From: Candidatus Eiseniibacteriota bacterium
GTDB lineage: Bacteria; Joyebacterota; Joyebacteria; Joyebacterales; Joyebacteraceae
Direction: 5' to 3'
Length of the DNA: 36,651 bases
NCBI GenBank assembly: GCA_030595835.1
Contig: JAUVLG010000021.1
Span: 1 to 36,651 of the forward strand
Below are positions 7,049 through 31,732 of this stretch, one piece after another; within the stretch, counting starts at the first letter, position 1; each line of letters opens with the position of its first letter. A program made the position numbers and the translations under genes. The notes beneath the pieces were generated by a model. That model was not told the origin of the DNA. It was given only the letters and a program-made list of their open reading frames with translations, and searched no databases.

Positions 7049-8218
7049 ATGATCCACACGAGAGCCACGGGACGGCACATCGATTTCTCAGCAGGTGGTG
7101 AGAACTACAGCGCGTTCGTGCCCCACCCGTTGCCACCCGATCCACCGCTCGGTCTCAGCGAAAGCGTGCAGGATCTGAGGGACCGCGCCAACAGAGCGCT
7201 GGGAAGACTGGATGGGGTCGCGACTGTTCTGCCTGATGCCTCGCTCTTCGTCTACATGTATATTCGGAAGGAAGCCGTGCTCTCATCACAGATTGAGGGT
7301 ACCCAGTCATCTCTGTCGGAGCTACTCCTGTTCGAAAGCGAGCAAGCTCCGGGAGTCCCCCTCGATGATGTAGAGGAAGTGTCGAAGTACGTTGCTGCAA
7401 TGGAACACGGGCTGCGTCGTCTCGGCAGTGGATTCCCTCTCTCCTTAAGACTCATCCGTGAGATCCACGGAGTCCTGCTGTCTGGGGGGCGAGGCAGCGA
7501 GAGAACGCCAGGGGAGTTCCGCCGTTCCCAGAACTGGATTGGTGGGACGCGCCCCGGGAACGCGGTCTTTGTGCCGCCGCCGCCGGACATGGTCATCGAC
7601 TGTATGGGTGCTCTTGAGAAGTTCCTACAGGATGATCCGGTGAAGACCCCAGTCCTGATCAAGGCAGCACTGGCGCACGTTCAGTTTGAGTCGATCCACC
7701 CCTTCCTTGACGGCAACGGGCGCTTGGGTCGGCTGTTGATCACCTTACTTCTGTGCGCAGAGGGAGCTCTGCGCCAGCCACTGCTGTACCTCAGCCTGTA
7801 CTTCAAGAGCCACCGCCAAACATACTACGATCTACTCCAGAGAGTCCGGAGCGACGGCGATTGGGAAACATGGGTGGAGTTCTTTCTGTCCGGGGTGATT
7901 GAGACTGCCCAGCAGGCAAGCGATGCGGCGGACGCGATCCTGCGGCTGTTCGACGAGGACAGGAAGCGCATCGAGGCCCTCGGGCGGGCCGCGAGTTCGA
8001 CGTTGCGGGTCCACGCGCAACTCCGGAAGACACCCCTCATCTCCATTCCGGTAGCGTCGAAGCGCTCGGGGCTCTCGGGGCCGACGGTCGGAGGATCAAT
8101 GGGGCGCCTGGTTGATTTGGGGATCGTCCGTGAGGTGACAGGCAATCGCCGAAACCGAGTGTTCGTCTATGACCGATTCGTCGACATACTGAACGAAGGG
8201 ATGGAGTCCACTCCGTGA
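7049..8218 (+). CDS. Fic-domain protein adenylyltransferase
   Basis: This 389-residue Fic protein probably transfers AMP from ATP to hydroxyl side chains of a target protein. The catalytic motif is HPFLDGNGRLGRLL, with the catalytic His at residue 217. An inhibitory helix motif of the class II type, SSQIEGT (Glu at residue 83), lies N-terminal, so the enzyme is predicted to be self-inhibited. The N-terminal part matches the Fic_N domain (LSSQIEGTQSSLSELL). The C-terminal 80 residues look like a winged-helix DNA-binding module (SIPVASKRSGLSGPTVGGSM), as in many stand-alone Fic proteins. The ATG at 7049 is preferred over TTG at 7034 because GGAGAGG lies just before it. The gene stands alone, and the target is unknown. 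Confidence 0.9.
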   Translation: MIHTRATGRHIDFSAGGENYSAFVPHPLPPDPPLGLSESVQDLRDRANRALGRLDGVATVLPDASLFVYMYIRKEAVLSSQIEGTQSSLSELLLFESEQAPGVPLDDVEEVSKYVAAMEHGLRRLGSGFPLSLRLIREIHGVLLSGGRGSERTPGEFRRSQNWIGGTRPGNAVFVPPPPDMVIDCMGALEKFLQDDPVKTPVLIKAALAHVQFESIHPFLDGNGRLGRLLITLLLCAEGALRQPLLYLSLYFKSHRQTYYDLLQRVRSDGDWETWVEFFLSGVIETAQQASDAADAILRLFDEDRKRIEALGRAASSTLRVHAQLRKTPLISIPVASKRSGLSGPTVGGSMGRLVDLGIVREVTGNRRNRVFVYDRFVDILNEGMESTP

Positions 8219-11500: not shown

Positions 11501-14500
11501 AGTGTGACGACCAACCTGTAGCCCGAAGGTTCGGCCGGGGGTTCAACAAACACGTCGCTCGAGATCTCCCTCTCTCGGTCGACCAGCTCGTCATACCAGA
11601 CCTGAACCTCCGCTCGCCTGTTGAGCGCCATACCCTCGGGCGTGTCGTTGCTCGCAACAGGCACGTCCGGTCCTCTGCCCTCTGACGAGACTGCCGTCTC
11701 GGGCAGTCCCAGGGCGGAGGCGAGCAGACGTCCGACCTCTTCCGCGCGCGAGCGGCCCAGGCCGTAGTTGTCGCCGTAGATACCGGCGGCGCCGGCGCTC
11801 AGGCGCTCATTGTCGGTGTGACCCACGATGTGAAGTCTCACATTGTCCTTGTCGCTCAGGGTCTCAATGACGGCCCTCAGCCTTTCCACGTACTCGGCGT
11901 CGATGTCAGACTTGCCCGACCGGAACCGGATGGGCTCGATGACGTCGGTCAGCTTGATCGTGTCTGTTTCGGTCACGATCATCGTGTGTGTCACCCACTC
12001 ACCGTCGTCGGGCTCGATCGGAATGAGCTCGCGCGTGATCACGAGCCTCTGACCGTTCAAGCCGGCGGCGACGACCCCGATATGGTCGGTCGTCACCCGG
12101 CCGGCGGCGTCCAGCACGACGCGGCTGCCCTCGGCGCTCGAGACCACGATGTCCTCAACATCGGAGCTCGGGAGTTCGGCCTCTATCACGATTCGGCTGC
12201 CGGGTTCACTCCAGCCAGGGACGTCCCCGAAGCTGATGCCTTCGGCGAGCGACGCCGGGCCGTCGAGCGGCCTCGGTCCGTCCCCCGTGTCTATCGTCGT
12301 CGTTCCAGGGACGAAGGCGTCGGTTGGTGCACCACCTCTGATTATAACGTCTGTCGCGAGCGCTGGATCCTGCCAGCCGTCGCCGTCGCGGTCATGGAAG
12401 ACCTTGCCTATGATCGCGTTACTGTCGAACGTGGCGTCGTAGACGAACTCTACGCTCGTGCCCGCGGCGCTGCCGATCGGCTCGTCGTCCCTGTAAGGAA
12501 TAACCACGTTCGCGTGGTCGCCGGGCGTGACACCCGCGCCGGGGCGAAGCAGGTATGTTATGAGCACGATCTCGGTCGGGCCGAAACTGACCGGACCGAA
12601 CACCACCGGACGATCCCCGGACACGTTCAGGGACGTCTCGACGTCGTCATCCGTTCCGATCGCGCCATCGTCGCCGGCGCGTCTGAGCGTCGCGGAATCC
12701 TCGACGTACCGGAACCCCGCTGGGACGAAGTCGTGGAAGGTCACGCCCTCCGTCGGGACTTCAGAGCTATTCTCTGCCGTCAGCGTGTAGCCGATTGTCC
12801 CGCCGGTCGACACATGGTCGCTCCACGCGGACTTGGAGACGAGGATCTCGCCCTCAAGCTGGTCGGGATCGAGGTAGTCGGGCGTCCCGTCACCATCGTG
12901 ATCGTCGTCGCTGTAGTCGCCGTTCTCGTTGGCGTCCTCGTCCTCGGTCGGAATGTCGTCATTATCGTCGTCGATGTCGCGCCAGTCTCTGATTCCGTCG
13001 CCGTCGGTGTCCTGGACTGGCGAACTGGAGCCGGTCGCATTGTCCTGACCGGGGCCTTCGACGGTGTCGTACGCGTCATCGAGCCCATCGCCATCGCCGT
13101 CCGTTCCTGACGGGGTGGTGTCCGCGATGCCGTCGTGGTTCGCGTCGTGTCCCTCGATGGCATCCGGGACGGTGTCGTCGTCGGAGTCGAGGTCGAGGTG
13201 ATCCGTCGTACCGTCTCCATCGGTATCGACCGGAACTATGAACGCCCCGCCGTTGTCAGGGTCGTACGCGTCGTCGAGCCCATCGCCGTCGCTGTCACCG
13301 CCCGTGGGTGGGACGTATTCGCCCTCCTCCTGTGACTCGACGTTGTCTACGATACCATCGTTGTCCGAGTCGATGTCCAGGCTGTCGGGAATCCCGTCGC
13401 CGTCGGTGTCGATCTCACCGTCTCCCTCGTCCACGTCCAGAATGCCGTCGTCATCATCGTCGATATCCACGCTGTCCTCAACACCGTCACCGTCGGTGTC
13501 CAGAGCGATCTGGATGTCCTCTTCCAGGTCGTCGCTGGTCGTGTTGCTGTCGTCCTGGTCGAGATCTACATCGGTGATGATGTTCGTGATGATGCTTCCG
13601 GCAGAGGTCGGGTCAACAGTCACCTGAATGTTGAGCACGGCGCTCTCGCCTGCCGCGAGTGTTCCCACCGACCACACGCCGGAGTGGCTCACGTAGCTGC
13701 CACCGCCGTCGTCACTGACGTAGGTAACGCCTTCGGGGAGAGGGTCTGTGATGGAGACGTTGGTGGCCATCGCCGGGCCGTTGTTTGTTACGGTGATGGT
13801 GTAGGTGATCGTAGCGCCGACGACCGGACTGTTGTTATCCACGGTCTTCGTAACAGCGAGGTCGGTATCGTTATCGATACTTATGTCGACGTCCGGATCG
13901 TCCTCTGTGGCGTTGCTGTCATCCTGGTCGGCTACTACCTCGGTCACCACGTTGGTAATCACCGACCCCGAGGTGCCGGTGTCGACCGCGGCCTGGATGT
14001 TGAGGGCTACCGCCTCACCGGACATCAGCGTGCCGATGCCCCAGATACCTGTGGCGCTGTCGTAGGCGCCGCCCCCGTCGTCGGACACGTAGGTCACTCC
14101 GTCCGGCAGGACGTCGGTAACCGAGACGCTGGTCGCGGTGGTCGGCCCGTTGTTTGTGACCGTGATGGTGTAGGTGATGACGTCGCCCTCGGAAGGCGTC
14201 CCGTCATCCACCGTCTTGACGACGACCAGGTCTGTCTCATTCTCTACGGTGATGCTCTCCTCGAGGTCGTCATCCGAGATGCCGCTGTCCACTTGGTCGA
14301 CCAGCACCTCCGTGATAATGTTGGTGATGACGCTGCCCGCTGTGCCCGCGTCCACCTGGGCCGTTATGCGCAGAGCGTCCGTTCCGCCCGCGCGAAGCGG
14401 CTCCACGACGGTCCAGACCCCGGTCTCGGGGTCGTAGCTGCCACCCCCGTCGTCCGCGAAGTAAGTCACCCCGGTCGGAAGGAGATCGGTCAGCGAGACC

Positions 14501-17193
14501 CCCGTCGCGTCGGCGGGTCCGTTGTTGGTCACGGACAGCACGAACGTGATGGTCTGTCCCTCGGCGGGCGTCTGGTCGTCGACCGTCTTTGTGATGAACA
14601 GGTCGACGTCCGTCGGCAAGGAGATGGCGACCGATGCGGTGAGGTCGTCCTCCGTTATGTTCGTATCGTGCTGGTCCTGCGAGACGTCGGTCACGGTGTT
14701 AGTGATGAGCGTGCCCGATGTGCCCGCGTCCACCGTCGCCTGAATGCTCAGTGAGGCGGAGGCGTCGACGTCGAGTGTGCCGACGTCCCATACTCCGGTG
14801 CCACTGTCGTAGCTGCCTCCTCCGTCGTCGGCGAGATATGTGACGCCGGCGGGGAGCGGGTCAGTAACCGTGACTCCGGTGGCCTGAGATGGGCCGTTGT
14901 TGACCGCCGTGATGGTGTAGGTGATGGTGTCGCCTTCCGCGGCGACCGGCACGTCCACGATCTTCGAGACCGCGAGGTCCACAAGTGAGTCGGCGTCCAG
15001 GTAGTCGGGCGTCCCATCGCCGTCACCATCGTCGTTGGTCGGGTCTCCGTCGCCGTTGGCGTCTTCCGGTCCGACCGTCAGAAGGCCGTCGTCATCATCA
15101 TCCGTGTCGCGCCAGTCGCGCGCGCCGTCGCCGTCCGTGTCCTGGAGCGGCGAGTTTGAGCCGGCCTCATTGAACTCCGTCGGGCGGACGATCGTGTCGT
15201 AGGCGTCGTCCAAACCGTCGTCATCGCTATCGACGCCGGTCGCGATGGTATCGGCAATGCCGTCGTGGTTGGCGTCGTGACCTTCTATGTAGTCCGGAAC
15301 GTTGTCATTGTCCGAGTCGAGGTCGAGCAGATCGTTGGTACCGTCGCCGTCTGTGTCGACAATGACTATCGGAGTGCCACCGTTGTCGGTGTCGTAGGCG
15401 TCGTCGAGCCCGTCTCCGTCCGTGTCGATACCCGCAGCCGGGATGTAGGCGCCATCCGCCTGAGCCTCGACATTGTCGACTATGCCGTCGTTGTCGGAGT
15501 CGATGTCCAGGCTGTTTGGAACGCCGTCCCCGTCGGTATCAACAAGGCCATCACCCTCATCTACGTCAAGCACGCCGTCATCATCGTCATCCACATCGGT
15601 GATGTCCGGTTCGCCGTCCCCGTCGCTGTCTGCGGGGATGGTGACGGTAACCGTCGCCGTGTCGGTTCCTCCGTAGGCGTCGCCTATTTCGTATGTGAAG
15701 GTGTCGGTGCCCGAGAAGCCCAGCGGGGGAGTGTAGACAATGTGGTCGTCCGTTGGGTCGCCCGGCGTGCCGTTGTCGTTGATAATCGCCGTCCCGCCCT
15801 GAGCGGTGACCGCGTCGACGCCGATTATGGAGATCTCGTCTCCATCGGGGTCGCTGTCGTTGGCGAGGACGTCGACGGGAACGGGAGTATTGATCAGCGT
15901 GCCGGCGCCGTCATCAACGGCGTCGGGTGGCTGGTTCCCTACCCTTACTACGGCGGTGGCCGGGGCGTTGTCCGCCGTGTCCTCGGTGGTGTCTATCTGT
16001 TCGATGCCTATGAAGGCGACCGCGGAGTTCGTGTAGAACCCGTCTACGGCGGGGAAGGACGCGTTGAATGTGAGCCGCGTGGTGCCGCGGCTCGGTACGG
16101 TGAAGGGTCCGTTCCATGTAAGCACCTGACCCGCAATGCCGGGGTCGGGTATCGGTGAACCGTCCAGTGCCGACGTGCCGGCCACATACGTCGTGATGTC
16201 GGGGCTCACCGGCAGGGTGTCGATGATCTCATTGATCACGATGTCGACCGATCCAGAGTTACTGAGAGTTAGAGTGAACGTGCTGGTGCCGCCGTCGGGC
16301 AGCACCTCCGGTGACGCGCTCTTCCTCAGGATCGTCAGATTGTCCGCGCTGGAGATGGGTGGGATGGCGGCGAGGCTCGAGATGGTCGTGTGCTTGATCT
16401 GCGTGCCGCTTCGAATCTGCACGATTGGGCTCACGGCCGTGGGTGTCTCGCTCGTCGCCACCGCGCGGAGAATGTAGACGGCAACGTAGTGTGTCTGCGC
16501 GGAATTGGCCGGTACGTAGTAGAGCTGATCCGTGAAGTGGGCGACGTTCCCACCTGAGAGCGTGATATCCGTCGCGAGAAGCTCGTACCTGTCTGCGGGC
16601 CAATCCGGGAAGCTCGCCGCCGTGAATGCCATGGACGGCGTTTCACCGATTGTGCCGCTGTTCCCGTTCACGGTAATGGTGACCAGACCACCCAGGACCG
16701 GAGGAGTAGGGCCCGTCACGACCGTCTCGACCTTGTTGGCGTTCGCCGTGATCGTATGGAGCACCTGCGCGAGTGTGAACACCTCGCTGGTGAGCGGCAA
16801 CCCGGCAGGCGGCATTCCGTCGTAGACGGTCACCGTGTGTCTCTGGGGCGTCGGAGTTTCGTACGTGGCCTGCAGGAAGATGAAAGCGGTCTTGCTCTCG
16901 CCGACCGCGATCTCTCCCAGGTTGACGAGTCCGGTCTCGGTGTCCGCGACCGATACGGAGCCTCCGGTGAAGTGCGACACCTCAACCCAGATCTCCTGGT
17001 AGGGATCGGGACCGACGTTCTCCACCGTGTAAGAGACGTACTGACAGTAGATGTCGTCGCCGACGTCGATGTAGAACTCCGGCGCAGAGGTGCGTGTGAT
17101 GGTGACGGCTCCAAGAGCGATCGATGGAACCAGCAACGCGAGAAGAACGAGGAACATGAATGCGCGCCCTGATCTGTACGGTCCGGGTTTCAT
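8557..17193 (-). CDS. giant DUF11/TSP3/OmpA outer-membrane protein
   Basis: This 2878-residue exported protein has a signal peptide (residues about 10-29, ending ALG). Approximate layout: 282-400 DUF11-like; 420-518 cadherin-like/Ig module (NQPPDAVDDG, VLANDSDPDGDE); 520-736 thrombospondin type 3 calcium repeats (DTDGDG, DSDNDG); 737-1228 four tandem DUF11 repeats of about 123 residues (TDLAVTKTVD, TVTNNGP, DDGGGSY); 1230-1442 a second TSP3 block nearly copying the first; 1445-1585 DUF11-like; 1750-1863 an OmpA peptidoglycan-binding domain (IVGHTDNERL, LGRSRAEEVG, NRRAEVQVWYDE); 1883-1988 a carboxypeptidase-regulatory/SdrD-like beta fold; 2001-2878 alternating strands typical of an outer-membrane beta-barrel, ending in tyrosine. 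The ATG at 17193 leads straight into the signal peptide; an in-frame ATG at 17307 would bury it. It is probably a calcium-stiffened surface or anchoring protein, with the barrel in the outer membrane. This role is inferred from the domains. Confidence 0.88.
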   Translation of the reverse strand: MKPGPYRSGRAFMFLVLLALLVPSIALGAVTITRTSAPEFYIDVGDDIYCQYVSYTVENVGPDPYQEIWVEVSHFTGGSVSVADTETGLVNLGEIAVGESKTAFIFLQATYETPTPQRHTVTVYDGMPPAGLPLTSEVFTLAQVLHTITANANKVETVVTGPTPPVLGGLVTITVNGNSGTIGETPSMAFTAASFPDWPADRYELLATDITLSGGNVAHFTDQLYYVPANSAQTHYVAVYILRAVATSETPTAVSPIVQIRSGTQIKHTTISSLAAIPPISSADNLTILRKSASPEVLPDGGTSTFTLTLSNSGSVDIVINEIIDTLPVSPDITTYVAGTSALDGSPIPDPGIAGQVLTWNGPFTVPSRGTTRLTFNASFPAVDGFYTNSAVAFIGIEQIDTTEDTADNAPATAVVRVGNQPPDAVDDGAGTLINTPVPVDVLANDSDPDGDEISIIGVDAVTAQGGTAIINDNGTPGDPTDDHIVYTPPLGFSGTDTFTYEIGDAYGGTDTATVTVTIPADSDGDGEPDITDVDDDDDGVLDVDEGDGLVDTDGDGVPNSLDIDSDNDGIVDNVEAQADGAYIPAAGIDTDGDGLDDAYDTDNGGTPIVIVDTDGDGTNDLLDLDSDNDNVPDYIEGHDANHDGIADTIATGVDSDDDGLDDAYDTIVRPTEFNEAGSNSPLQDTDGDGARDWRDTDDDDDGLLTVGPEDANGDGDPTNDDGDGDGTPDYLDADSLVDLAVSKIVDVPVAAEGDTITYTITAVNNGPSQATGVTVTDPLPAGVTYLADDGGGSYDSGTGVWDVGTLDVDASASLSIQATVDAGTSGTLITNTVTDVSQDQHDTNITEDDLTASVAISLPTDVDLFITKTVDDQTPAEGQTITFVLSVTNNGPADATGVSLTDLLPTGVTYFADDGGGSYDPETGVWTVVEPLRAGGTDALRITAQVDAGTAGSVITNIITEVLVDQVDSGISDDDLEESITVENETDLVVVKTVDDGTPSEGDVITYTITVTNNGPTTATSVSVTDVLPDGVTYVSDDGGGAYDSATGIWGIGTLMSGEAVALNIQAAVDTGTSGSVITNVVTEVVADQDDSNATEDDPDVDISIDNDTDLAVTKTVDNNSPVVGATITYTITVTNNGPAMATNVSITDPLPEGVTYVSDDGGGSYVSHSGVWSVGTLAAGESAVLNIQVTVDPTSAGSIITNIITDVDLDQDDSNTTSDDLEEDIQIALDTDGDGVEDSVDIDDDDDGILDVDEGDGEIDTDGDGIPDSLDIDSDNDGIVDNVESQEEGEYVPPTGGDSDGDGLDDAYDPDNGGAFIVPVDTDGDGTTDHLDLDSDDDTVPDAIEGHDANHDGIADTTPSGTDGDGDGLDDAYDTVEGPGQDNATGSSSPVQDTDGDGIRDWRDIDDDNDDIPTEDEDANENGDYSDDDHDGDGTPDYLDPDQLEGEILVSKSAWSDHVSTGGTIGYTLTAENSSEVPTEGVTFHDFVPAGFRYVEDSATLRRAGDDGAIGTDDDVETSLNVSGDRPVVFGPVSFGPTEIVLITYLLRPGAGVTPGDHANVVIPYRDDEPIGSAAGTSVEFVYDATFDSNAIIGKVFHDRDGDGWQDPALATDVIIRGGAPTDAFVPGTTTIDTGDGPRPLDGPASLAEGISFGDVPGWSEPGSRIVIEAELPSSDVEDIVVSSAEGSRVVLDAAGRVTTDHIGVVAAGLNGQRLVITRELIPIEPDDGEWVTHTMIVTETDTIKLTDVIEPIRFRSGKSDIDAEYVERLRAVIETLSDKDNVRLHIVGHTDNERLSAGAAGIYGDNYGLGRSRAEEVGRLLASALGLPETAVSSEGRGPDVPVASNDTPEGMALNRRAEVQVWYDELVDREREISSDVFVEPPAEPSGYRLVVTLTNEGQCEEGIASARLATPEGLVVVTDPMGRYHLAGIEDARFDRGRNIAVKVDAAFLPNGTRFTTENPRVMRVSQGVTERVNFGVQLPSGAESGESADITQIPEDYFFMVGVANVTAGRNDVSGSIEPLASDYHYDEEVFVDGRVAFYLKGMIQGRYLVTAQLDTDEDDLDSLLDGLDRTDPKSMFRRLDPDHYYPVYGDDSVTTLDTDTQGKFYVRLDWDESQALWGNYNTGITGTEFARYNRSLYGAKLHYGSVASTETGERRAELIGFASEAQTASAHNEFIATGGSLYYLRHDDIVQGSEKAWVEVRERETTRVVENIVLVRGRDYEIDEIQGRVILTRPLSGVAGQEGPSIVKDTPLDGNRVFLLVDYEYVPGGFEPADATYGGRAKAWLTDAVALGGTYVQEGRGDSEYELKGADLTLTTGGGTYIKTEYAESQARQVSSAFVSGDGGLSFGDKNLAEDEDDMTGQALGVEARVDFGDISHGDYDGALAGWWKQKDAGFSIARLPDGTKITEYGGEGRMLITDVLSVSARGAVSERDGIDTEQTYSLQADYDVTDRWDVGAEIRLKSFEPDDNERTNATLAAARIGYDVTRSLNIYGIGQFTVDKSDGADDNNLGTVGLQGRIGDKLALRAEGSSGDLGTSADIGADYALNDTQTMYGTYTLSTDHTHGESGVFTLGQRRNVSDQLAVFTEHQFAHEDDGARAAQVYGADYEFSEWATVGLSLQSSALESEGTDVERDVATVSASYGHDRTRLGGKLEYRSDTGPSDRTQWLTTNSITHRATEDLVLTGKLSLSQTEEQNTDAELARFVEAGVGFAYRPICGDRFNVLGRYTYLSDLASEAQDTDDGVDERSHIMSLEGMHPFGHRVEMGGKYARKQGDVRFERGAGDWHRTSVDFAAARARYHVTNKWDGLVEYRWLSVKETDDQRQGVLAGAYRQIGDNLRVGVGYNFTDFSDDLTDLSYESHGWFIDLVGSY
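12865..13505 (-). repeat. second TSP3 calcium-repeat block
   Basis: This part of the giant gene encodes DxDxDG calcium loops and is a diverged copy of the block at 14985-15637. Both share the same order of landmarks: DVDEGDG, DSLDIDSDNDGIVDNVE or equivalent, GLDDAYD, IEGHDANHDGIADT, and RDW followed by an acidic run. The pair indicates an internal duplication of about 215 residues. Confidence 0.8.
13510..14985 (-). repeat. four tandem DUF11 repeats
   Basis: Four units of about 370 bases lie between the two TSP3 blocks in the giant gene. Each starts with a (V/T)DL..(T/S)K.VD strand, carries TITYTIT.TNNGP-like and VTY.(A/S)DDGGGSYD-like segments, and ends in I(T/S)(N)…VxxDQxDSN. DUF11 folds are extracellular beta sandwiches that often act as stalk spacers. 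Confidence 0.8.
14985..15637 (-). repeat. first TSP3 calcium-repeat block
   Basis: This stretch encodes repeated acidic calcium loops such as DSDGDGEPDITDVDDDDDG, DTDGDGVPNSLDIDSDNDG and DTDGDGTNDLLDLDSDND. It is the counterpart of the block at 12865-13505. The loops create strong local codon bias (GAC/GAT/GGC), which also generates long but meaningless open frames on the opposite strand. Confidence 0.8.
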
Positions 17194-17266
17194 TCGAGCA
17201 GACTCCAGGTTGCAGGTGGAGGGCCCAGGGCCCGTGTCCGACTTCGATCCGTGCTTGACGTCCTGC

Positions 17267-17289
17267 GGTGGCCCCGGAACGGGGCCACC
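17267..17289 (-). promoter_or_regulatory. hairpin in giant-gene leader
   Basis: A perfect 9-bp inverted repeat (GGTGGCCCC / GGGGCCACC, 5-base loop) lies about 75 bases before the giant gene's start codon and after its candidate -10 box, so it would form in the mRNA leader. No T-run follows, so it is not a terminator. mRNA stabilisation or regulation is possible. Confidence 0.5.
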
Positions 17290-17302
17290 TGCGTATGTTA
17301 AC

Positions 17303-17311
17303 ATCATAACA
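17303..17311 (-). promoter_or_regulatory. possible extended -10 promoter, giant gene
   Basis: Read on the minus strand, TGTTATGAT gives an extended -10 (TG-n-TATGAT, five of six to TATAAT). No good -35 lies 17 bases upstream, which is tolerated with extended -10 sites. It would give a leader of about 100 bases. Confidence 0.4.
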
Positions 17312-22860: not shown

Positions 22861-23048
22861 CGGTGATTCGTGCATCCCCGTCTCATCTTGACGGCAATTC
22901 GTATCGGCGATCCCAGAACAGAGGGTCACCGGGTCCACCGGTGGCGTCGTTGGATAATCGTGTCCGATCTGAACGGACGGTACTTCGCGCCCGTCCGGGC
23001 GGCCTCCTCACGGTGAGGGAGTTGTGCGGACAGACAAGGGGGAGAGGC

Positions 23049-26000
23049 ATGAGACTGACGTCTAGTCTTCGGGTGACGGCTGTCATCGCGGTTCTGCTGC
23101 TGGCCTGCAGTGCGATGGCCGGGGTCGTGACCCGCCACATCGAGTTCTCGGAGCCGATGATCACTTCCGAGGGCGACTATCATCGAATCACAATGACCGA
23201 CGCGCGGAGCTACGGAGACCCTGGTGAGCCCAGGCTTCCCCTGACAGGCGTCAGGCTGCTGCTCCCGCCGGGCGACGTTGTCTCCGAAGTCCGCGTTATC
23301 CCGGGCCAGAGGGTCGTGCTCGGAGACGGCTATGTCATCGAGCCCGGGCAGATGCAGTATCCGCTGTCCCACGCGGGCCCACGTCAGATCGCGGAAGCGG
23401 ACTATCCCGCCGGCTCGACGTATCCGGCGGCGCTTCACTCGGACCCCGTGTCCGGGCGCTACCGCGGGTATGGCATCACGAATATCGCGCTCTCTCCTGT
23501 TGAGTATGAGGTGGGAAGCGGCACGGTCTCGTACTACACGAGCATGGACATCGAGGTCATCACCGAGCCCGATCCTACCGGCATGCGCGGCGTCGAGCAG
23601 ATGATAGTCCACGACGACGCAACGTTGGGTCGGCTGTACTCGATGATCGACAACCCGATGGACGCGATGCAGTACGCGGGCATCGAGCGTGTGGCAAAAG
23701 TCAGCCGCTCGCTGGATCCAGCGCTCGCGTACAACTACATCATCATTACGACGAACGCATGGGACGACTACCTGGACGGTTACGTCGAGTGGAGAACCCA
23801 GCGGGGCCAGAAGGTCGGTGTGTTCACCAAGGAGTGGATAGTTCTGAACTACACCGGCGACGACACACAGATGCAGATCAGGAACTTCGTCATCGACGCG
23901 TACAACACGTGGACGCCCGACTACGTTCTGATCGTCGGCGACGGCGAGCCCTCGGACAGCAACGGCGTTCCGGTGCGGGGTTTCTACGCCACTGCCTACG
24001 GTGAAACTGACAGCAACATCGCCTCCGACCTTTACTACTCGGCCCTCGACGGCACGTGGAATGCCGACGGCGACGGCTACTACGGCGAGATCGGAGAAGA
24101 GGACTTTTACCCCGAGGTCGGTATCGGTCGCGTCGCCTGCAGCAGTGCCGCCGACATCGCCAACTTCGTCACGAAGACCCAGCGCTATTCGGACACGCCT
24201 ATCGTCTCCGAGTGCGACGAGGCCCTGATGGTCGGTGAGCTGCTCTGGACCGGCAGCCCCAACACCTATGGGGGAACCTACAAAGACGAGATCATGAACG
24301 GCGGGACGTACAACGGATACACCACGACGGGTTTCCCGGGCACGATGAACGTCGGGACGCTCTACGACCGCGACGTGGGTAGCTGGACAAAGGCGACCCT
24401 TATCAACCTGATGGAAACGGGAATGAACATCGTCAACCATCTGGGCCATTGTAACGTCGACTGGTTCATGAACATGTCGAGCGCCGATATCCCCTCGTTC
24501 GACAACGACGGCACGGTTCACAGCCTGAACTTCGTCTACAGCCAGGGCTGCTACGGTGGGTCATTCGACAACCGGCTTATCGGCGGCGGCTACGGCGGCG
24601 ACTGTTTCTCTGAGAACTTCGCGTGTGACGACGGCGGCGCGGTCGCCATTGTCTCGAACACGCGTTACGGCTGGGGCGATCCGGGCGGCACGGACGGCTC
24701 GTCGCAGTTCTTCGACCGCGAGTTCTTCGATGCCATCTTCGGTGAGGACATCTACACGCTCGGGTATGTCAACGATGACTCGAAGATCGACGTCCTCTGG
24801 GCCATCAATACCGGTGCGAACAGGTGGTGCTACTACGAGCTGACGCTGTTCGGAGACCCGGCCATGGAACTATGGACGGCCGAGCCCATCGCGCTGACGG
24901 CGACGCACAGCCCGACCGTGATGGTGAGTCAGCCGGACTTCGAGGTCAACGTCACTGATGCCTCGCGCGGTGCGGTCGAGGGCGCCATCGTCACCGTCTA
25001 CACGGACGACCTCTCGGTCTACGATACGGGTGTCACGGACGGCACTGGAGCGGTGACGCTGCATCCTAATGCTACGTCGATCGGGACGCTGCACGTCAAG
25101 GCGACGGTCAACAATCACCTGGTCAGTGACACGACGGCGGACATCATTCCCACGTCCGGGGTGTATCTTGCTCTGGACAGCTACACCATCGATGACGATA
25201 CCACGGGGGGGAGCAACGGCAACGATGACGGCAACGTCGGCGCCAGTGAGACCATTGAGTTCCCCGTCACCATCGGCAATTTCGGAACGGATATGGCCTA
25301 CGGCGTCACCGCGACGCTCTCCTCGAGCAGCAGCCGAATCGACATCCAGGACGCATACAAAGAGTTTGGCGACATCGCGGGCAGCGGCACGGCGACGAGC
25401 CCGGACGGCTTCGTGTTCTTGGTCGATTCCGACACGCCTGATGGCGAGGTGATCCCTCTCACGCTGACGATGAGCGACTCCGCGAGTCGGGAGACGTGGG
25501 AATCCTACATCAATATCATCGTTCACGCGCCGGTCATTGATGCACAGGGTTACGTCGTGGACGATCCGCCCACCGGGGGCAACGGCAACGGTTGCTTCGA
25601 GGCCGGTGAGACCGTCGAGATCACGGTGACGCTCGAGAACACCGGAAGCGTGATGAGCACAGGGCTCACGGGCACGCTGACGACGACCGATCCCAACGCC
25701 ACCATACTCGATGGCACGGCTGCGATCGTGTTCCTCAATCCGGACAGCAGCGGTGTGTTGTCGCCCAATTTCACCGTCCTGCTGTCGCCTGTTACGCCAC
25801 AGGGTCACGAGGTGGTGTTCGACCTGGCGATCGGAGCAGACTGGGGTTACTCATCGAGCGCTCAAGTGTCGCTTATCACGAACGGCGATTTCGTCGACGA
25901 CATCGAGACTGGTGAGGGCGAGTGGACGCACGACAACGTCACGACAGGGTTTGGTGACCAGTGGCACATCGATTCCTACCGCTCACACTCGACGACACAC

Positions 26001-26741
26001 AGCTGGAAGTTCGGCGGCTCGGGCTCGGGCACGTACGGTGATTCCTCGGACGGTGTTCTCGTCAGCAAGCCCCTTTGCCTGGGCGCGGACGGTGAGATGA
26101 CGTTCTGGCACTGGATGGCGGTGGAAGAGGAGAGCGCGACCTCCGCGTGGGACTGCGGTCTTGTTGAGATCTCGATCGACGACGGCGAGACCTGGGACGT
26201 TCTCTATCCGGATGGTGGATACAGCCATGCGAAGAACGACAACAACGCGAACCCGCTGCCCGAAGGCACGCCGTGCTGGTCCGGCAGCTTCACCTGGCGA
26301 CAGGAGACCTTCGACCTGACGAGCTACGAGGACGCGAAGGTCCAGATACGGTTCCACTTCGCGTCAGACGGTTACGTCACGCTCGAAGGCTGGTATGTGG
26401 ATGACATCAGCATTACATCCACTCTGCCGCAGACCTCCGTGCCCGAGGGTGAGGAGATCCCCAGGACGTTCGCTCTCAGGCAGAACGCCCCGAACCCCTT
26501 CAATCCGGTCACGGTAATCCAGTATCAGCTTCCGAGAGAGACACACGTGACGATCGACGTGTTCAGTATCGCCGGCAAGCTGGTCGCGACGCTCGTTGAT
26601 GAAGAGCAGGATGCGGGTGTCAAGGCGGTCACGTGGGACGGCACAAGCGCGACGGGGGAGAAGGTCGCAAGCGGCATCTACATGTACAGGATGCAGGCGG
26701 GCGATCACACCTCCAGGAAGATGATGGTCCTTCTGAAGTAG
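23049..26741 (+). CDS. secreted C25 (gingipain-type) protease, FlgD-like C-terminus
   Basis: This 1230-residue secreted cysteine protease has a signal peptide (residues 1-25, ending AMAG). A gingipain-type propeptide and catalytic domain follow, with the catalytic His467 in NHLGHCNVDW and Cys501 in FVYSQGCYGGSFDN. Behind it lie beta-sandwich regions (FGDPAMELWTAEPI; then two CARDB-like units, FPVTIGNFGTDMAYGVTATL and VEITVTLENTGSVMSTGLTG). Next is an immune-inhibitor-A/MAM-like jelly-roll (about 950-1120; LEGWYVDDISI). The last 85 residues are a FlgD-like Ig fold (LRQNAPNPFNPVTVIQYQLP; ASGIYMYRMQ) used as a C-terminal sorting or anchoring tag in FCB-group phyla. The ATG at 23049 follows GGGGGAGAGG; the in-frame GTG at 22863 is rejected because it hides the signal peptide. 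It probably digests extracellular proteins. Monocistronic. Confidence 0.93.
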   Translation: MRLTSSLRVTAVIAVLLLACSAMAGVVTRHIEFSEPMITSEGDYHRITMTDARSYGDPGEPRLPLTGVRLLLPPGDVVSEVRVIPGQRVVLGDGYVIEPGQMQYPLSHAGPRQIAEADYPAGSTYPAALHSDPVSGRYRGYGITNIALSPVEYEVGSGTVSYYTSMDIEVITEPDPTGMRGVEQMIVHDDATLGRLYSMIDNPMDAMQYAGIERVAKVSRSLDPALAYNYIIITTNAWDDYLDGYVEWRTQRGQKVGVFTKEWIVLNYTGDDTQMQIRNFVIDAYNTWTPDYVLIVGDGEPSDSNGVPVRGFYATAYGETDSNIASDLYYSALDGTWNADGDGYYGEIGEEDFYPEVGIGRVACSSAADIANFVTKTQRYSDTPIVSECDEALMVGELLWTGSPNTYGGTYKDEIMNGGTYNGYTTTGFPGTMNVGTLYDRDVGSWTKATLINLMETGMNIVNHLGHCNVDWFMNMSSADIPSFDNDGTVHSLNFVYSQGCYGGSFDNRLIGGGYGGDCFSENFACDDGGAVAIVSNTRYGWGDPGGTDGSSQFFDREFFDAIFGEDIYTLGYVNDDSKIDVLWAINTGANRWCYYELTLFGDPAMELWTAEPIALTATHSPTVMVSQPDFEVNVTDASRGAVEGAIVTVYTDDLSVYDTGVTDGTGAVTLHPNATSIGTLHVKATVNNHLVSDTTADIIPTSGVYLALDSYTIDDDTTGGSNGNDDGNVGASETIEFPVTIGNFGTDMAYGVTATLSSSSSRIDIQDAYKEFGDIAGSGTATSPDGFVFLVDSDTPDGEVIPLTLTMSDSASRETWESYINIIVHAPVIDAQGYVVDDPPTGGNGNGCFEAGETVEITVTLENTGSVMSTGLTGTLTTTDPNATILDGTAAIVFLNPDSSGVLSPNFTVLLSPVTPQGHEVVFDLAIGADWGYSSSAQVSLITNGDFVDDIETGEGEWTHDNVTTGFGDQWHIDSYRSHSTTHSWKFGGSGSGTYGDSSDGVLVSKPLCLGADGEMTFWHWMAVEEESATSAWDCGLVEISIDDGETWDVLYPDGGYSHAKNDNNANPLPEGTPCWSGSFTWRQETFDLTSYEDAKVQIRFHFASDGYVTLEGWYVDDISITSTLPQTSVPEGEEIPRTFALRQNAPNPFNPVTVIQYQLPRETHVTIDVFSIAGKLVATLVDEEQDAGVKAVTWDGTSATGEKVASGIYMYRMQAGDHTSRKMMVLLK

Positions 26742-26888: not shown

Positions 26889-26917
26889 TTGCGCTAACGT
26901 GACTATCTGAGTAAATT
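26889..26917 (+). promoter_or_regulatory. weak promoter candidate for the OtsB-like gene
   Basis: TTGCGC and TAAATT are 17 bases apart, in a spot that becomes AT-richer before the gene. Only three and four consensus positions match. Confidence 0.3.
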
Positions 26918-27000
26918 TGTGGAAGTGGTCAGACGAAGCCACGAGGACCGGTTGGGCCTACAGGCACACGAGCAAGTGCGCGGATTCGACGGAGGAACGG

Positions 27001-27891
27001 GTGGTCATAAAGGCCGCAGGATTGTCCTACCCCAGGCACGTTTCAGAAGAGGTGGATCTCCTGGCCCGCGCGCTTGGCGCGGCCGCGGAGGTGTTCCTGT
27101 TTCTGGACTACGGCGGGACTCTCGCGCCGGGGGCGCCCGGCGAGATGCTCCACCCGGAACCGGGGGTGCTGACGAAGCTGGAGCAGCTCGGGAACGAGGA
27201 GTTCTTCTCGGTCTTCGTGTTGAGCGGACGGACGGTTGGCGAACTCGATGCGGTCCTCGGGGTTGAGAACATCGGCCTGATAGGGCAGCGAGGGTTCGAG
27301 ATACGCCAGCCGTACTCCGAGATCGAGCACCCCGTGGACCCGGAGTCCCTCGGTGGCCTGATCCACCATCTCGAACTTGACGCCCACGGACGCCTGGAAC
27401 GATTTCGGGGTGTCTCGATCGAAAACAGGGGCTTCGCGCTAGCCCTGCATCTGAATCACGGGGATCCAAGTCTCGATCGCGAGGCCAGCCGGGAGTTCCT
27501 GCGCCTGGTGCGCGATCTGGATGTGAATCGCCAACTGGAGGTTCTCTACGGCGATCGGACGGTGGAGGCGAGGTTGGCCGGATGGCACAAGGGCGACGCC
27601 ATCAGCCACATCCTCAAAGCGGCCGACGTGGACGATTCACTTGCCATCTACATTGGTGACGACGTAACCGATGAAGAGGCCTTCAGGGCAGTCAGGGAAT
27701 GGGCTGAGATCGACGATCTCGAGGAACCGTGGTTCATGCCCGGCGACGAAGAAGAGGAGCCGCCCCACGCGCTCACGATACTCGTCGCGGAGCAGCCCCG
27801 TCCGACCACGGCTTCGCTCTTTGTTCGCGGGCCACACGAGGTCTATGAGTTCCTGTCCTCACTTGCGGCCATCGCGTCTGCTCTTCTGTAG
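27001..27891 (+). CDS. trehalose-phosphatase-like HAD protein, altered motif I
   Basis: This 296-residue cytoplasmic protein resembles OtsB, which removes phosphate from trehalose 6-phosphate. HAD motif II (VFVLSGR), motif III lysine (AGWHKGDAI) and motif IV (YIGDDVTDEEAF) are intact and typical of OtsB. Motif I reads FLDYGGTLAP instead of the usual DYDGTLAP. The nucleophile Asp36 is kept, but the second aspartate, which protonates the leaving group, is Gly38 (GGC rather than GAC). Activity may thus be low or changed. No trehalose-phosphate synthase (OtsA) is adjacent. The GTG start at 27001 follows GGAGG; a TTG at 26917 would add an unconserved leader. Confidence 0.8.
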   Translation: MVIKAAGLSYPRHVSEEVDLLARALGAAAEVFLFLDYGGTLAPGAPGEMLHPEPGVLTKLEQLGNEEFFSVFVLSGRTVGELDAVLGVENIGLIGQRGFEIRQPYSEIEHPVDPESLGGLIHHLELDAHGRLERFRGVSIENRGFALALHLNHGDPSLDREASREFLRLVRDLDVNRQLEVLYGDRTVEARLAGWHKGDAISHILKAADVDDSLAIYIGDDVTDEEAFRAVREWAEIDDLEEPWFMPGDEEEEPPHALTILVAEQPRPTTASLFVRGPHEVYEFLSSLAAIASALL

Positions 27892-27950: not shown

Positions 27951-28376
27951 CTAGCGTCCCCTGACCAATAGCACGGAACAGCTCGCCTGTTCGGCCACCG
28001 CCGCACTCACTCTGCCCATGGCCCTGCCCTGGTCCGGAGTTCTGCCCCTGACGCCGACCACGATGAGGTCGGCCCCAAGCTCTCCGGCGTACGCGACTAT
28101 CGCCTCCGTGGGGTGTCCCTTTTTTAGGAGCCTGGTCTCAGCCGTAACGGTGGCCTTTTCGGCAACGCCGGCAGCGTGCGAGAGGATCTTCTCGGCGTCT
28201 CCTTCCAGGGCTTCCTCCAGCTCGTCGGCGAGGTCCACCTTGTAGTGATCCGGGATGTGAAAGGCGTGGCAGATGCTCAGCGTCGAGCCGTGGGCCCGCG
28301 CCACCTCTGCTGCCGCTTCGACGGCTCGGTCCGAGTTCGTTGATCCATCCACCGCCACAAGAATCCTCTCGAACAT
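27951..28376 (-). CDS. universal stress protein, UspA family
   Basis: This 141-residue cytoplasmic protein has the Usp alpha/beta fold. It opens with MFERILVAVDGSTNSDRAVE, and the nucleotide-binding region is GVRGRTPDQGRAMGRVSAAV, followed by SCSVLLVR. It fits G-2x-G-9x-G, but the usual Ser/Thr after the last Gly is Arg, so ATP binding is less certain. The ATG at 28376 was chosen because GGAG lies eight bases before it; the TTG at 28379 is unlikely. It begins 25 bases after the MscS stop. The pairing suggests joint stress expression, which is inference. Confidence 0.9.
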   Translation of the reverse strand: MFERILVAVDGSTNSDRAVEAAAEVARAHGSTLSICHAFHIPDHYKVDLADELEEALEGDAEKILSHAAGVAEKATVTAETRLLKKGHPTEAIVAYAGELGADLIVVGVRGRTPDQGRAMGRVSAAVAEQASCSVLLVRGR

Positions 28377-28401
28377 CAATGGTCTCCTGTTGTCGTGGTC
28401 G

Positions 28402-29310
28402 TCAGGCGTCGTCGCGCTCCACCTTCACCCGCATGATCCCGTCCATCGGGGCCGCATCACCCAGGTAGATGGTGGTGTGCGGGAATGGGATCTCGATGCC
28501 CTTGGCGTCGAACGTGTTCTTCACCCTGCGTCTGAACTCCCGCCCGACGGTCCACTGCTTCACCGGCTGCGTCGTGAACATCACCCTGATGATGACCGCC
28601 GAGTCCGCGAAGTCCTGAACGCCCAACACCTCCAGCGGCGCCGTGATCATCGATGCGAATTTGGAGTCGGCCGCGAGCTCGTCACCTATCTCCTTCAGGA
28701 TGTGCATCACATCGTCGACGCTCTCCTTGTACGCGACGCCGATATCGAGCACGAAGCGGGACCACTGTCGCGTCTTGTTCGTCACGACGTCGATGGCGCC
28801 GTTAGGGATGATGTGAACGTTTCCCTCGTAGTCGCGGAGGGTGGTGGCCCGCAGGGTTATTTTCTCAACCAGACCGGATGCACCGGCGGCCTGGACAACA
28901 TCGCCGACGTTGTACTGGTTTTCGATGAGCACGAACATGCCCGCGATGAAATCCTTGACCAGCGACTGAGCGCCGAAGCCGACGGCAAGCCCCATGAGGC
29001 CGACACCGGCGAGGATCGGGCCGATATCGATCCCAAGCTCCTTCAAGACCATCATGACAGCGACGCCCCACACCATGATGCGCGTGATGTTCCTGATGAC
29101 CTTCCCGAGGGTGGCGGCCTGCTTCTCGCGCTCGTTCATCGTGGACGGATCGTTGTCCTCGAACGCCTGCTCCACGCGTCGCGTGACGAAGGTGGCGAGA
29201 CGTACGACGACCAGTGCGCCCACGAGCATCAGGATCGCCTTCAGACCGCTGGACATAAGCCACTTGACGATGGCCTCGACGTCCACGATCTCGCTCCAAT
29301 TCACTGACAT
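28402..29310 (-). CDS. small-conductance mechanosensitive channel, MscS family
   Basis: This 302-residue inner-membrane channel opens under membrane tension to release solutes after osmotic downshock. Three transmembrane helices are visible: residues about 20-40, 75-95, and the pore helix with GVGLMGLAVGFGAQSLVKDF, where the Gly/Ala pattern lines the pore. The cytoplasmic beta domain follows with YNVGDVVQAAG, ITLRATTLRDYEGNVHIIPN and the C-terminal FPHTTIYL. The length is close to E. coli MscS (286). It sits 21 bases after an M29 aminopeptidase gene and before usp in a four-gene run on the minus strand. Confidence 0.92.
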   Translation of the reverse strand: MSVNWSEIVDVEAIVKWLMSSGLKAILMLVGALVVVRLATFVTRRVEQAFEDNDPSTMNEREKQAATLGKVIRNITRIMVWGVAVMMVLKELGIDIGPILAGVGLMGLAVGFGAQSLVKDFIAGMFVLIENQYNVGDVVQAAGASGLVEKITLRATTLRDYEGNVHIIPNGAIDVVTNKTRQWSRFVLDIGVAYKESVDDVMHILKEIGDELAADSKFASMITAPLEVLGVQDFADSAVIIRVMFTTQPVKQWTVGREFRRRVKNTFDAKGIEIPFPHTTIYLGDAAPMDGIMRVKVERDDA

Positions 29311-29331: not shown

Positions 29332-30435
29332 TTAGATTGTGAACTTCCCGTCCTTGTAGATGATCTTCCCATCCGCGTAGATCTTCCCGCCATTGCGCAT
29401 GTCATTGACGATGTCCCAGTGCACGCCCGATTGGTTCTTGCCGCCCGATTCGGGAATCGACGCGCCCAAGGCCATGTGGAACGTGCCGCCGATCTTCTCG
29501 TCGAACAGCGTGTTCCGTGTGAATTTCTGGACGGCGTAGTTGGTTCCTATGGCGAACTCGCCCACGCGGCGGGCCCCCTCGTCGGAGTCGAGCATCGCGT
29601 GGAGGAAGTCCTCGTTCTTGGAGGCGCGGGCCTTGACGACACGCCCCTTCTTGAACGTCAGTTTGATACCGTCCGCCTCTCTGCCGGAGTAGAATCCGGG
29701 GAATGAGAAGCTGACCGTGCCCTCCATTGAGTCCTCGACGGGTCCCGTGAAGATCTCACCGTCAGGCATGTTCGCCTTGCCGTCGCAGTTGATCCACTTG
29801 CGGCCCTCGACGTTCATTGTGAGGTCGGTCCCCTCGGCAACCACTCGTATCTTCTTGCGCTCGTTCAGCTGCCGGCAGATCTTCTCCTGCTTGCCGTGTA
29901 CTCTCTTCCACGCCGCGATCGGGTCCTTGACGTGCAGCATGCAAGCCTTGAGCACGAAGTCCTCGTAGTCCTCGAGCGACATCTCGGCGTCCTGAGCCGA
30001 GGCGTTGCAGGGGAACTGGGTTCCCACCCACTTGAGTTCGCCGGCCGCCTCGCGCTCCATGAACCTCATGAAGAGTCTGCTCGTCGCCTTGCTTCTCATG
30101 GCTTGCTTCTTCGGGTCGACGCCGGCCATCGACTTCGTGTTCTCGCCGCCCCAGAGGGAGATTACCTTGTCGACCTTCTCGACCTCGAACTCCGAGATGG
30201 GGTTGACGAACTTGAGCTGGTGCTGTTTCGCGCTCTTGTAGAAGCTTTCGGCCAGCCCCGGCAGACCGATGCGGAGGAATGGATGGCCACCCACCTTGAG
30301 CACCTCACGGTAGATCTCGGAGATCAACGGTGCTGCGGTCGCCCCACCGCTTATCTCTACCAGCTCGCCCTTCTGGACTTCGACCGAGTAGTTGACCAGC
30401 ACTCCCGCGAGCTTCGTGTATCTTGGATCCCTCAC
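29332..30435 (-). CDS. aminopeptidase, peptidase M29 family (copy 2)
   Basis: This 367-residue cytoplasmic metallo-aminopeptidase (AmpS/PepS/thermophilic-metalloprotease family) releases N-terminal residues from peptides. Metal-ligand segments of the family are visible: DGEIFTGPVEDS (Glu), VGEFAIGTN (Glu), DEKIGGTFHMALG (His) and SGVHWDIV (His, Asp). It is a clear paralog of the gene at 30447-31553, with long shared runs such as CNASAQDAEMSLE and GGKIYADGKIIYK. The GTG start (VRDPRYTKLA) lies 11 bases after the upstream paralog's TAA, which overlaps the ribosome-binding sequence AAAGGAG, so translation is probably coupled. It is somewhat shorter than typical M29 enzymes (about 410). Confidence 0.9.
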   Translation of the reverse strand: MRDPRYTKLAGVLVNYSVEVQKGELVEISGGATAAPLISEIYREVLKVGGHPFLRIGLPGLAESFYKSAKQHQLKFVNPISEFEVEKVDKVISLWGGENTKSMAGVDPKKQAMRSKATSRLFMRFMEREAAGELKWVGTQFPCNASAQDAEMSLEDYEDFVLKACMLHVKDPIAAWKRVHGKQEKICRQLNERKKIRVVAEGTDLTMNVEGRKWINCDGKANMPDGEIFTGPVEDSMEGTVSFSFPGFYSGREADGIKLTFKKGRVVKARASKNEDFLHAMLDSDEGARRVGEFAIGTNYAVQKFTRNTLFDEKIGGTFHMALGASIPESGGKNQSGVHWDIVNDMRNGGKIYADGKIIYKDGKFTI

Positions 30436-30446
30436 TTGAGTCTCCT

Positions 30447-31553
30447 TTAGCCCAGTGTGAACTGGCCGTTCTTGTAGATTATCTTGCCGTCAGCGTAGAT
30501 CTTCCCGCCGTCTCGCATGTCGGCCACCATGTCCCAGTGAATGCCGGACTTGTTCTTCCCGCCGGACTTCGGGTAGGAGGATCCAACCGCCATGTGAATG
30601 GTGCCGCCTATCTTCTCATCGAAGAGAGTGTTCTTCGTGAACTTCTCTACCGCGTAGTTCGTGCCGACCGCGATCTCGCCTACAAATCTCGCGCCCTTGT
30701 CGGTATCGAGCATCGCGTGCAGAAACTCCTCACCCTTGGACGCCGTGGCCTTCACGACCTTCCCCTTTTTGAACGTGAGGCGAACGTCGTGGACCTCACG
30801 TCCGCCGTAGCACGCGGGGAATGTGAACGCGATCTTGCCCTCGACCGAGTCCTCGATGGGCCCCGTGAATATCTCGCCGGAGGGCATGTTGTTCCGGCCG
30901 TCGCTGTTTATCCACGTCCGCCCGGCGACACGCATCGAGATATCCGTTCCCTCCTTGACGATCCTGATCTTCCTGACGTCGTTCAGATACCTACAGAACT
31001 TCGCCTGTCTGCGTCTGATGCCCTTCCAGGCGGCCACGGGGTCCTTTTTGTGCACGAGACAGGCGCGAAGGACGAAGTCCTCGTACTCCTCAAGGGACAT
31101 CTCCGCGTCCTGCGCCGAGGCGTTGCACGGGAACTGCGTGACGCACCATGCGAGCTCCCCGGCGGCGACGCGGTCCTGGTAGCGCTGCCTCACTGCCGAC
31201 TGCGTCCTGGCAACGGTTGTCTGCTTCGCGGGGTCGACGCTGGTGAGCGATTTCGTGTTCTCGGCGCCGCGGATCGCCAGGAGTTTGTCTATGCTGTCGA
31301 TCTCGTGCTCGGCGAGCGGGCTCACGAACTCCAGCTGGTGTTTCTTCGCGTGCTCGTAGAAGATCTCCGTGGTACCCGGCAGAGCCACCCGTGTCATCGG
31401 ATGGCCGCCCGCCTCGAGGATCTCGCGGTACACCTCACGCACCAGCGGCGCCGCGGGCAGTCCCGCGCGTATCAGGACGAGGTCTTTCTTCTGAACATCA
31501 AGGCAGTACTCGACCAGCACCTTCGCGAGCTTCTGGTATCTTGGGTCTTTCAC
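30447..31553 (-). CDS. aminopeptidase, peptidase M29 family (copy 1)
   Basis: This 368-residue paralog of the downstream gene has the same metal-ligand segments: SGEIFTGPIEDS, VGEIAVGTN, DEKIGGTIHMAVG and SGIHWDMV. Both copies begin DPRYxKLAxVLV and end GGKIYADGKIIYKxG(K/Q)FT, so they arose by tandem duplication. Differences cluster in the N-terminal half (residues about 20-140), hinting at different peptide preference or hetero-dimer formation. The GTG start at 31553 follows AAGGAGAG. An in-frame extension to 31706 runs through an inverted-repeat element and is rejected. It is the first gene of a run with M29 copy 2, mscS-type and usp-type genes. Confidence 0.9.
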   Translation of the reverse strand: MKDPRYQKLAKVLVEYCLDVQKKDLVLIRAGLPAAPLVREVYREILEAGGHPMTRVALPGTTEIFYEHAKKHQLEFVSPLAEHEIDSIDKLLAIRGAENTKSLTSVDPAKQTTVARTQSAVRQRYQDRVAAGELAWCVTQFPCNASAQDAEMSLEEYEDFVLRACLVHKKDPVAAWKGIRRRQAKFCRYLNDVRKIRIVKEGTDISMRVAGRTWINSDGRNNMPSGEIFTGPIEDSVEGKIAFTFPACYGGREVHDVRLTFKKGKVVKATASKGEEFLHAMLDTDKGARFVGEIAVGTNYAVEKFTKNTLFDEKIGGTIHMAVGSSYPKSGGKNKSGIHWDMVADMRDGGKIYADGKIIYKNGQFTLG

Positions 31554-31588
31554 GTTCTCTCCTTGTTTTATGACCGCTGATGTCGAGT

Positions 31589-31732
31589 CGTAGGCCGCAG
31601 GTCTAGTGTCGGCGTACGTGGTCGGCCGGGTGTTACTCCGCCGCGAGTTCAGGCGCGTAAGCGCCGTGTGTCTGAGCGCCGGGGTAACACCCGGCCGGCG
31701 ACACACGCGGCCCTTGGGATCTGCGGCCTACG
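31589..31732. repeat. 144-bp nested inverted repeat between nadE and M29 gene
   Basis: Two inverted repeats are nested. The outer pair is 12 bp and perfect (CGTAGGCCGCAG at 31589-31600, CTGCGGCCTACG at 31721-31732). The inner pair is 24 bp (31621-31644 with 31676-31699), with one mismatch and two G-T pairs; its core is GGCCGGGTGTTAC / GTAACACCCGGCC. At the tip sits a 5-bp hairpin GGCGC-GTAA-GCGCC (31652-31665), a GNRA-type loop if the + strand is transcribed. The right arm covers the nadE stop codon. It could be a miniature inverted-repeat element, a structured RNA or an intercistronic processing/attenuation site. Confidence 0.85.

Follow-up and report, generated by a model that had tools for sequence, protein, structure and literature searches.

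The OtsB-like gene and its motif I

Does an OtsB-like protein that lacks the second aspartate of HAD motif I still act as a trehalose-6-phosphate (T6P) phosphatase, or has it taken on another role? The question is raised by a gene in a contig of a Candidatus Eiseniibacteriota bacterium; the window, i.e. the whole stretch of DNA that was analysed, covers 36,651 nucleotides. From the comparisons described below we read the gene product, with moderate confidence, as a long-maintained OtsB paralogue that would no longer be an effective trehalose-6-phosphatase and would rather be a pseudophosphatase binding a phospho-ligand. In our searches this paralogue appeared in one candidate phylum only.

The gene is enclosed in a 324-aa ORF (26917-27891, + strand) and probably starts at a GTG codon, which gives a 296-aa product (Table 1). 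The window protein matched PF02358 (Trehalose_PPase, Pfam; 97 bits, cut-off 27) and TIGR00685, the NCBI T6PP model (107 bits, cut-off 68), while no GT20 (TPS-like) domain was found in the 324-aa ORF with Pfam. The T6PP model was also matched by 18/18 aligned orthologues at E <=0.001, the bit score being compared with the cut-off for the first member only. Because of its score above the NCBI model, automatic annotation would call this protein a trehalose-phosphatase despite two altered parts of the active site. The first-pass annotation had reported a GGC codon and the sequence DYGGT in place of DYDGT, and this was confirmed: positions 27106-27120 read GAC TAC GGC GGG ACT (D-Y-G-G-T), in frame with the ORF. 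Residues are numbered according to row 1 of the alignment, in which residue 1 is codon 26998-27000 and residue 39 is codon 27112-27114.

Table 1. Position of the OtsB-like gene, its motifs and its neighbours in the window
Feature	Position	Strand	Comment
C25 (gingipain-like) peptidase gene	22863..26741	+	Upstream, same strand, in 17/17 loci
GGAGG, Shine-Dalgarno-like	26991..26995	+	5 nt 5' of GTG 27001; putative role
OtsB-like (Trehalose_PPase) gene	27001..27891	+	296 aa from probable GTG start
HAD motif I DYGGT	27106..27120	+	Codon 27112-27114 is GGC (Gly39); Asp in other TPPs
HAD motif II SGR (S76-R78)	27223..27231	+	Coordinates computed from alignment numbering
Cap motif ENRGFALALHLN (E142-N153)	27421..27456	+	ExK......HxR in other TPPs
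HAD motif III K198-G199	27589..27594	+	
HAD motif IV GDDVTDE (G220-E226)	27655..27675	+	
Acidic loop W235-H257	27700..27768	+	After motif IV
Universal stress protein gene	27951..28379	-	Convergent neighbour, in 15/17 loci
MscS-type mechanosensitive channel gene	28402..29310	-	In 15/17 loci
Two tandem M29 peptidase genes	29332-30435, 30447-31706	-	

Residue 39 across the phylum

The phylum sample comprised 20 genomes of one family, belonging to 8 genera. Orthologues with a readable motif I were present in 18 of these genomes, with 19 copies in total. The orthologue of G003 is truncated before motif I (rows L021/L129, dropped before the counts), and none was found in G015, a genome that is 57% complete. 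We also dropped rows that duplicated counted genomes (L001 and L117, from the window; L033-L035; those of L113-L128 that repeat L004-L020), as well as L130 and L138, which duplicate L026 and L002.

The acid/base Asp was absent in 13/19 copies, spanning 6 of the 8 genera. It was replaced by Gly in 11 copies, by Arg in one (DYRGT, in G006) and by Cys in one (DYCGT, in the second copy of G001, on contig C277). The Asp was found in the remaining 6/19 copies, which all came from genera g3 and g5. Relatives with GAC at this codon had been proposed as evidence against a genuine change; relatives retaining the Asp do exist, but only as these six copies. The window's genus is represented by five other genomes: a full copy with Gly is found in four of them, and the fifth is the truncated G003. 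One of the four Gly-bearing genomes has in addition a second copy with Cys. The Gly was encoded by GGC (6 copies), GGT (2), GGG (2) and GGA (1), and the use of four different codons indicates that the third base turned over while Gly stayed.

All of the 97 other TPPs compared had Asp at residue 39, although they are no unbiased sample of the family, since part of them came from a pattern search in which only Asp or Gly was allowed at this position. Of the canonical OtsB copies in the phylum, 19 were listed and 10 of these were read, all with DYDGT. A single-protein search of the genome contigs confirmed no relative; a search with the alignment as query returned 80 loci, among which 3 (L033-L035) fell in the subfamily, all from genomes already counted. 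G001 contains two syntenic copies of the locus (L131 and L142), of which one encodes the DYCGT protein. Instead of a duplication, the second copy may reflect another strain present in the bin, whose contamination is given as 6%.

History of the Asp loss

The OtsB-like subfamily was well separated in a tree of 116 rows (100/99). In this tree, which included the motif column, the 13 Asp-less copies formed one clade (96/83), implying one loss. We also calculated a 39-row tree with the motif column left out, in which the 19 copies were combined with 20 other TPPs taken from the 97. Its root was shifted, the Asp-less copies were not together and 2 changes were needed; a single Asp-less clade was neither supported nor rejected by these data (AU p 0.453). 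The 6 Asp-keeping copies formed one clade in both trees (100/93 with 116 rows, 100/98 with 39 rows). An rpoB tree (15 genomes from the phylum, 4 outgroups) did not resolve the deepest branching within the phylum and again required 2 changes. One ancient loss of the Asp would be the simplest reading of these trees, though a loss followed by a regain, or two losses, may have occurred instead.

The rest of the active site and the cap

The other HAD motifs had been described as intact in the first-pass annotation. This held for the core motifs but not for the cap domain, where the substrate signature is altered too. We compared the positions at which at least 90% of the other TPPs (97 sequences) agree. 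Among the cap residues E142, K144, H151, R153 and E190, each is conserved in 95-97 of the 97 (K144, H151 and R153 in 97/97 by one count). The window protein keeps E142, H151 and E190, but has Arg for K144, Asn for R153 and also Arg for H98. In the 13 Asp-less copies as a group, R153 was found in none, K144 in 3 and H151 in 7, while G77 and E190 (11/13 each) and E142 and R78 (12/13 each) were partly kept. The Asp-keeping copies also deviated: K144 was Arg in 6/6, R153 was kept in 4/6 and G77 of motif II in 2/6, while H151 was kept in 6/6. As judged from the alignment, the cap differs throughout the subfamily, and the more strongly where the Asp is absent.

The core behaved differently. D37, G40, T41, L42, G99, K198 and G199, as well as G220, D221, D222, T224, D225, E226 and F229, were kept in 13/13 Asp-less copies, and D37, T41, S76, K198, D221, D222 and D225 were invariant in all 19 orthologous copies. 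Of the 297 columns, 73 are invariant; the probability that all seven of these core catalytic residues fall in invariant columns is 4e-5, a value that is descriptive only, as it ignores the conservation expected of active-site residues. The acidic loop also contains two invariant tryptophans, W235 and W245 (18/18 aligned).

Possible functions of the Asp-less protein

According to passages of two accounts (PMC8069645, PMC12715507), the first Asp of motif I in HAD phosphatases is the nucleophile, and the second one is the general acid/base, which activates water in the second step. For the T6PP of Brugia malayi, passages of PMC4081830 report that replacement of the equivalent residue (D215A) brings the kcat from 24 to about 0.0004 s-1 and that the cap mutant K334A has a kcat of 0.06 s-1. 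K334 would correspond to position 144 here, on the basis of the common motif. In the same enzyme the contact of Asp215 with Mg2+ is made by the main-chain oxygen (PMC4081830, in part), so that a Gly could spare the Mg2+ site while removing most of the turnover.

Since a catalytic residue and part of the sugar-binding site have been lost, and this in related genera too, the T6P reaction is probably no longer performed well. The paralogue would have given up efficient hydrolysis of phosphate esters, any T6P turnover being presumably slower by orders of magnitude than in a normal OtsB. Its core may still bind Mg2+ and a phosphoryl group, and for such a core the most likely role would be that of a pseudophosphatase binding a phosphorylated ligand. 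This ligand would probably be a sugar phosphate other than T6P, or besides it, and the protein may act by binding or regulation rather than by turnover. Such a pseudophosphatase role is supported, as far as sequence comparisons can tell, by the loss in 6/8 genera set beside the Asp of 97/97 other TPPs, by the changed cap, by the core residues invariant in 19/19 copies and by the low dN/dS (see below). The effects of D215A and K334A on kcat in the Brugia malayi enzyme lend support by analogy, within the passages of PMC4081830 cited above. Further support is provided by the phylum's other trehalose genes, with OtsA in 17/20 genomes, DYDGT in 10/10 canonical OtsB copies read and neither gene in G006, and by the predicted structure, which resembles both T6PPs (Z 25.9) and the fungal domain 5hus (Z 19.3). 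The earlier suggestion of a changed reaction, or of a binding or regulatory role, fits the loss in 6/8 genera, the purifying selection and the changed cap, and that interpretation as a whole is partly supported.

The chief rival, which we consider possible though less probable, is an active HAD enzyme, phosphatase or phosphotransferase, that has been re-specialised for another substrate. If this substrate has a good leaving group, such an enzyme could form the aspartyl-phosphate from it; or else another residue, e.g. His197 next to the motif III Lys, could provide the acid/base. The nucleophile, the Mg2+ residues and the motif III Lys are all invariant, which exceeds what pure binding needs, and some chemistry may have been retained. 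The presence of Gly in 11/13 Asp-less copies, with four codons, may also mean that this residue is selected for a function, which argues against a pseudophosphatase. Furthermore, the Arg found in place of K144 in 6/6 Asp-keeping copies suggests that the substrate changed with the Asp loss or before it. HADs without the second Asp of motif I do exist: phosphonatase, haloacid dehalogenase and the P-type ATPases retain the nucleophilic Asp and have a non-acidic residue at +2, but their caps and reactions differ from those of the OtsB-like protein. Phosphonatases, dehalogenases and P-type ATPases were not among the 50 structure matches listed for our model, which excludes nothing. Residue 197 was considered as a compensatory acid/base because it is His or Arg in 13/13 Asp-less copies and Ser or Gly in 6/6 Asp-keeping copies. 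However, this association amounts to one split of the tree, as 28 positions, including 39 and 197, separate the two groups completely; moreover, His is found at 197 in 10 of the 97 other TPPs, and Asn and Asp in 76. The near-complete loss of activity of D215A in the B. malayi T6PP (PMC4081830, in part) also speaks against a re-specialised enzyme.

The retained nucleophile, Mg2+ site and Lys, together with the missing acid/base, would also be compatible with a phospho-aspartyl switch, an idea that we regard as unlikely. Such a protein would be phosphorylated by a reactive metabolite and stay so for long, signalling rather than hydrolysing. If it were true, a HAD phosphatase would have become a sensor of phosphate or sugar status in a candidate phylum.

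Likeness to known systems and the other trehalose genes

An AlphaFold2 model of the window protein, built with an 18-row alignment, had a pLDDT of 83.9, residues 241-251 of the acidic loop being modelled at pLDDT <50. Among the matches listed, the best were T6PPs (A. fumigatus 5dxl, Z 25.9); the model also matched the fungal regulatory TPP-like domain 5hus (C. albicans, Z 19.3). With OtsB/T6PP proteins (5dxl; M. tuberculosis OtsB2, 5gvx; Salmonella, 6upb) the window protein shares the fold with its cap, the nucleophile, motifs II-IV and above-cut-off scores. It differs from them by the lack of the motif I acid/base Asp and by the altered ExK...HxR of the cap, and its subfamily by the acidic loop with two invariant Trp and by the non-adjacent otsA, a neighbour that OtsB genes often but not always have.

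Fungal Tps3, Tsl1 and TslA are TPP-like proteins that, according to passages of PMC5405227, lack catalytic residues and help to regulate trehalose synthesis, TslA affecting both the trehalose content and chitin synthase. Like Tps3/Tsl1/TslA/TslB (C. albicans 5hus), as far as these are described there, the window protein is TPP-like and is kept beside a presumably active TPP; of its catalytic residues one is missing and the others are retained. Unlike them, it is a stand-alone bacterial protein and not a combination of TPS-like and TPP-like domains; it keeps the nucleophile and the Mg2+ residues, and its subfamily occurs also in genomes without OtsA. The fungal proteins are a functional precedent and not the family of the window protein. 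A bacterial OtsB homologue, M. tuberculosis OtsB1 (Rv2006), is similar in that no role as a T6P phosphatase was found for it, according to passages of PMC11046441, where it is reported as a much larger protein (1327 aa). Among the papers listed in searches of the open-licence literature there was none on a bacterial pseudo-TPP, nor one treating both Eisenbacteria and trehalose.

OtsA (PF00982) was found in 17/20 genomes of the phylum, and OtsA together with a separate OtsB in 16 of the 19 genomes bearing the OtsB-like gene. In all 16 genomes with both, otsA and the OtsB-like locus were on different contigs. In some genomes the canonical OtsB lies <200 bases from otsA (G001, contig C108; G004, contig C75); that of the window's genome (DYDGT) is on contig C219. 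Two nearly complete genomes contained the OtsB-like gene without OtsA or any other PF02358 gene, namely G006 (rated 100% complete, Arg variant) and G009 (rated 97% complete, Asp form), and the same was true of G018 (73% complete). This distribution indicates that the OtsB-like locus does not just supply the cell with its trehalose-phosphatase, and that its product is no obligatory OtsAB subunit. That the protein regulates the canonical OtsA/OtsB pair as a further subunit, after the manner of yeast Tps3/Tsl1, would be in line with the fungal precedent (PMC5405227, in part), with the match to 5hus and with the presence of OtsA in 16/19 genomes with the gene. Yet G006 and G009 keep the gene without such partners, and otsA is never on the same contig, which makes this explanation quite improbable.

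Two observations were made on these genes. On C219 a glycosyltransferase-like ORF of 413 aa (L002, 812-2053, - strand) lies ahead of the canonical OtsB in the same orientation and overlaps it by a few bases; it may be TreT-like. In G016 (C128:49023-50368) the OtsA match is in two pieces in different frames, possibly a frameshift or a split gene.

Conservation of the locus

Synteny was compared in 17 loci, i.e. the window and 16 fetched loci, with Pfam names taken from the window's genes. In addition to the neighbours of Table 1, two genes of the M29 cluster follow in 11/17 loci, some of the others being cut by the end of the contig or of the stretch. In one locus of G001 (L142) about 1.9 kb separate the C25 peptidase gene from the OtsB-like gene. 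This common synteny indicates that Asp-keeping and Asp-less genes occupy the same locus. Being orthologues in sister genera, they offer a natural before/after pair for the loss or change of a HAD activity. The neighbours themselves (secreted peptidase, stress protein, MscS) point to no pathway.

The dN/dS ratio (NG86) was 0.097-0.208 for 15 pairs of the window's genus, 0.125-0.316 for 3 pairs of the Asp-less genus g4 and 0.112-0.306 in genus g3, which keeps the Asp (10 pairs). By this measure the OtsB-like gene is under purifying selection. Its product was less conserved than the neighbours in several genome pairs. Among Asp-less copies, the identity was 49% for G012-G006 (peptidase 60%, MscS 53%) and 66% for G008-G014 (neighbours 71% and 71%); between the window and G008, by contrast, it was 61%, near the values of the neighbours (peptidase 58%, stress protein 62%). 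Among Asp-keeping copies, it was 55% for G009-G007 (peptidase 67%, MscS 66%) and 74% for G013-G016 (neighbours 86% and 85%). As this lower conservation is seen in both forms, the Asp loss brought no faster divergence than in the Asp-keeping copies; it counts, however, against the pseudophosphatase reading. It would also be expected of a decaying gene heading to loss, as would the Arg and Cys found at residue 39 in two copies and the variable cap residues. Such decay is nevertheless very unlikely in view of dN/dS values well below 1, the synteny, the invariant core and the open frames (in one count G004 had a single TAG, located at the upstream margin of the match; a second count gave none).

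Finally, the assembly of the window's genome is fragmented (265 contigs, 98.53% complete), yet a sequencing or assembly error, or the very recent mutation that had been suggested, is ruled out by the orthologues: 10 more copies, all from other genomes, have Gly as well, in other species' assemblies down to 50% identity and with differing synonymous codons.

In the window as a whole, there was no match to Rfam, and a promoter/terminator scan gave 2 terminator-like sites (1.5 expected) and no promoter-like site. The C25 peptidase encoded upstream of the OtsB-like gene has 1292 aa, with a FlgD-type domain and a Por sorting tail that scores below the cut-off. Further away, the window encodes a surface-type protein of ~2915 aa with five DUF11 stretches and an OmpA domain (8557-17307, - strand) and a Fic-family protein with a Fic_N domain (7034-8218, + strand).
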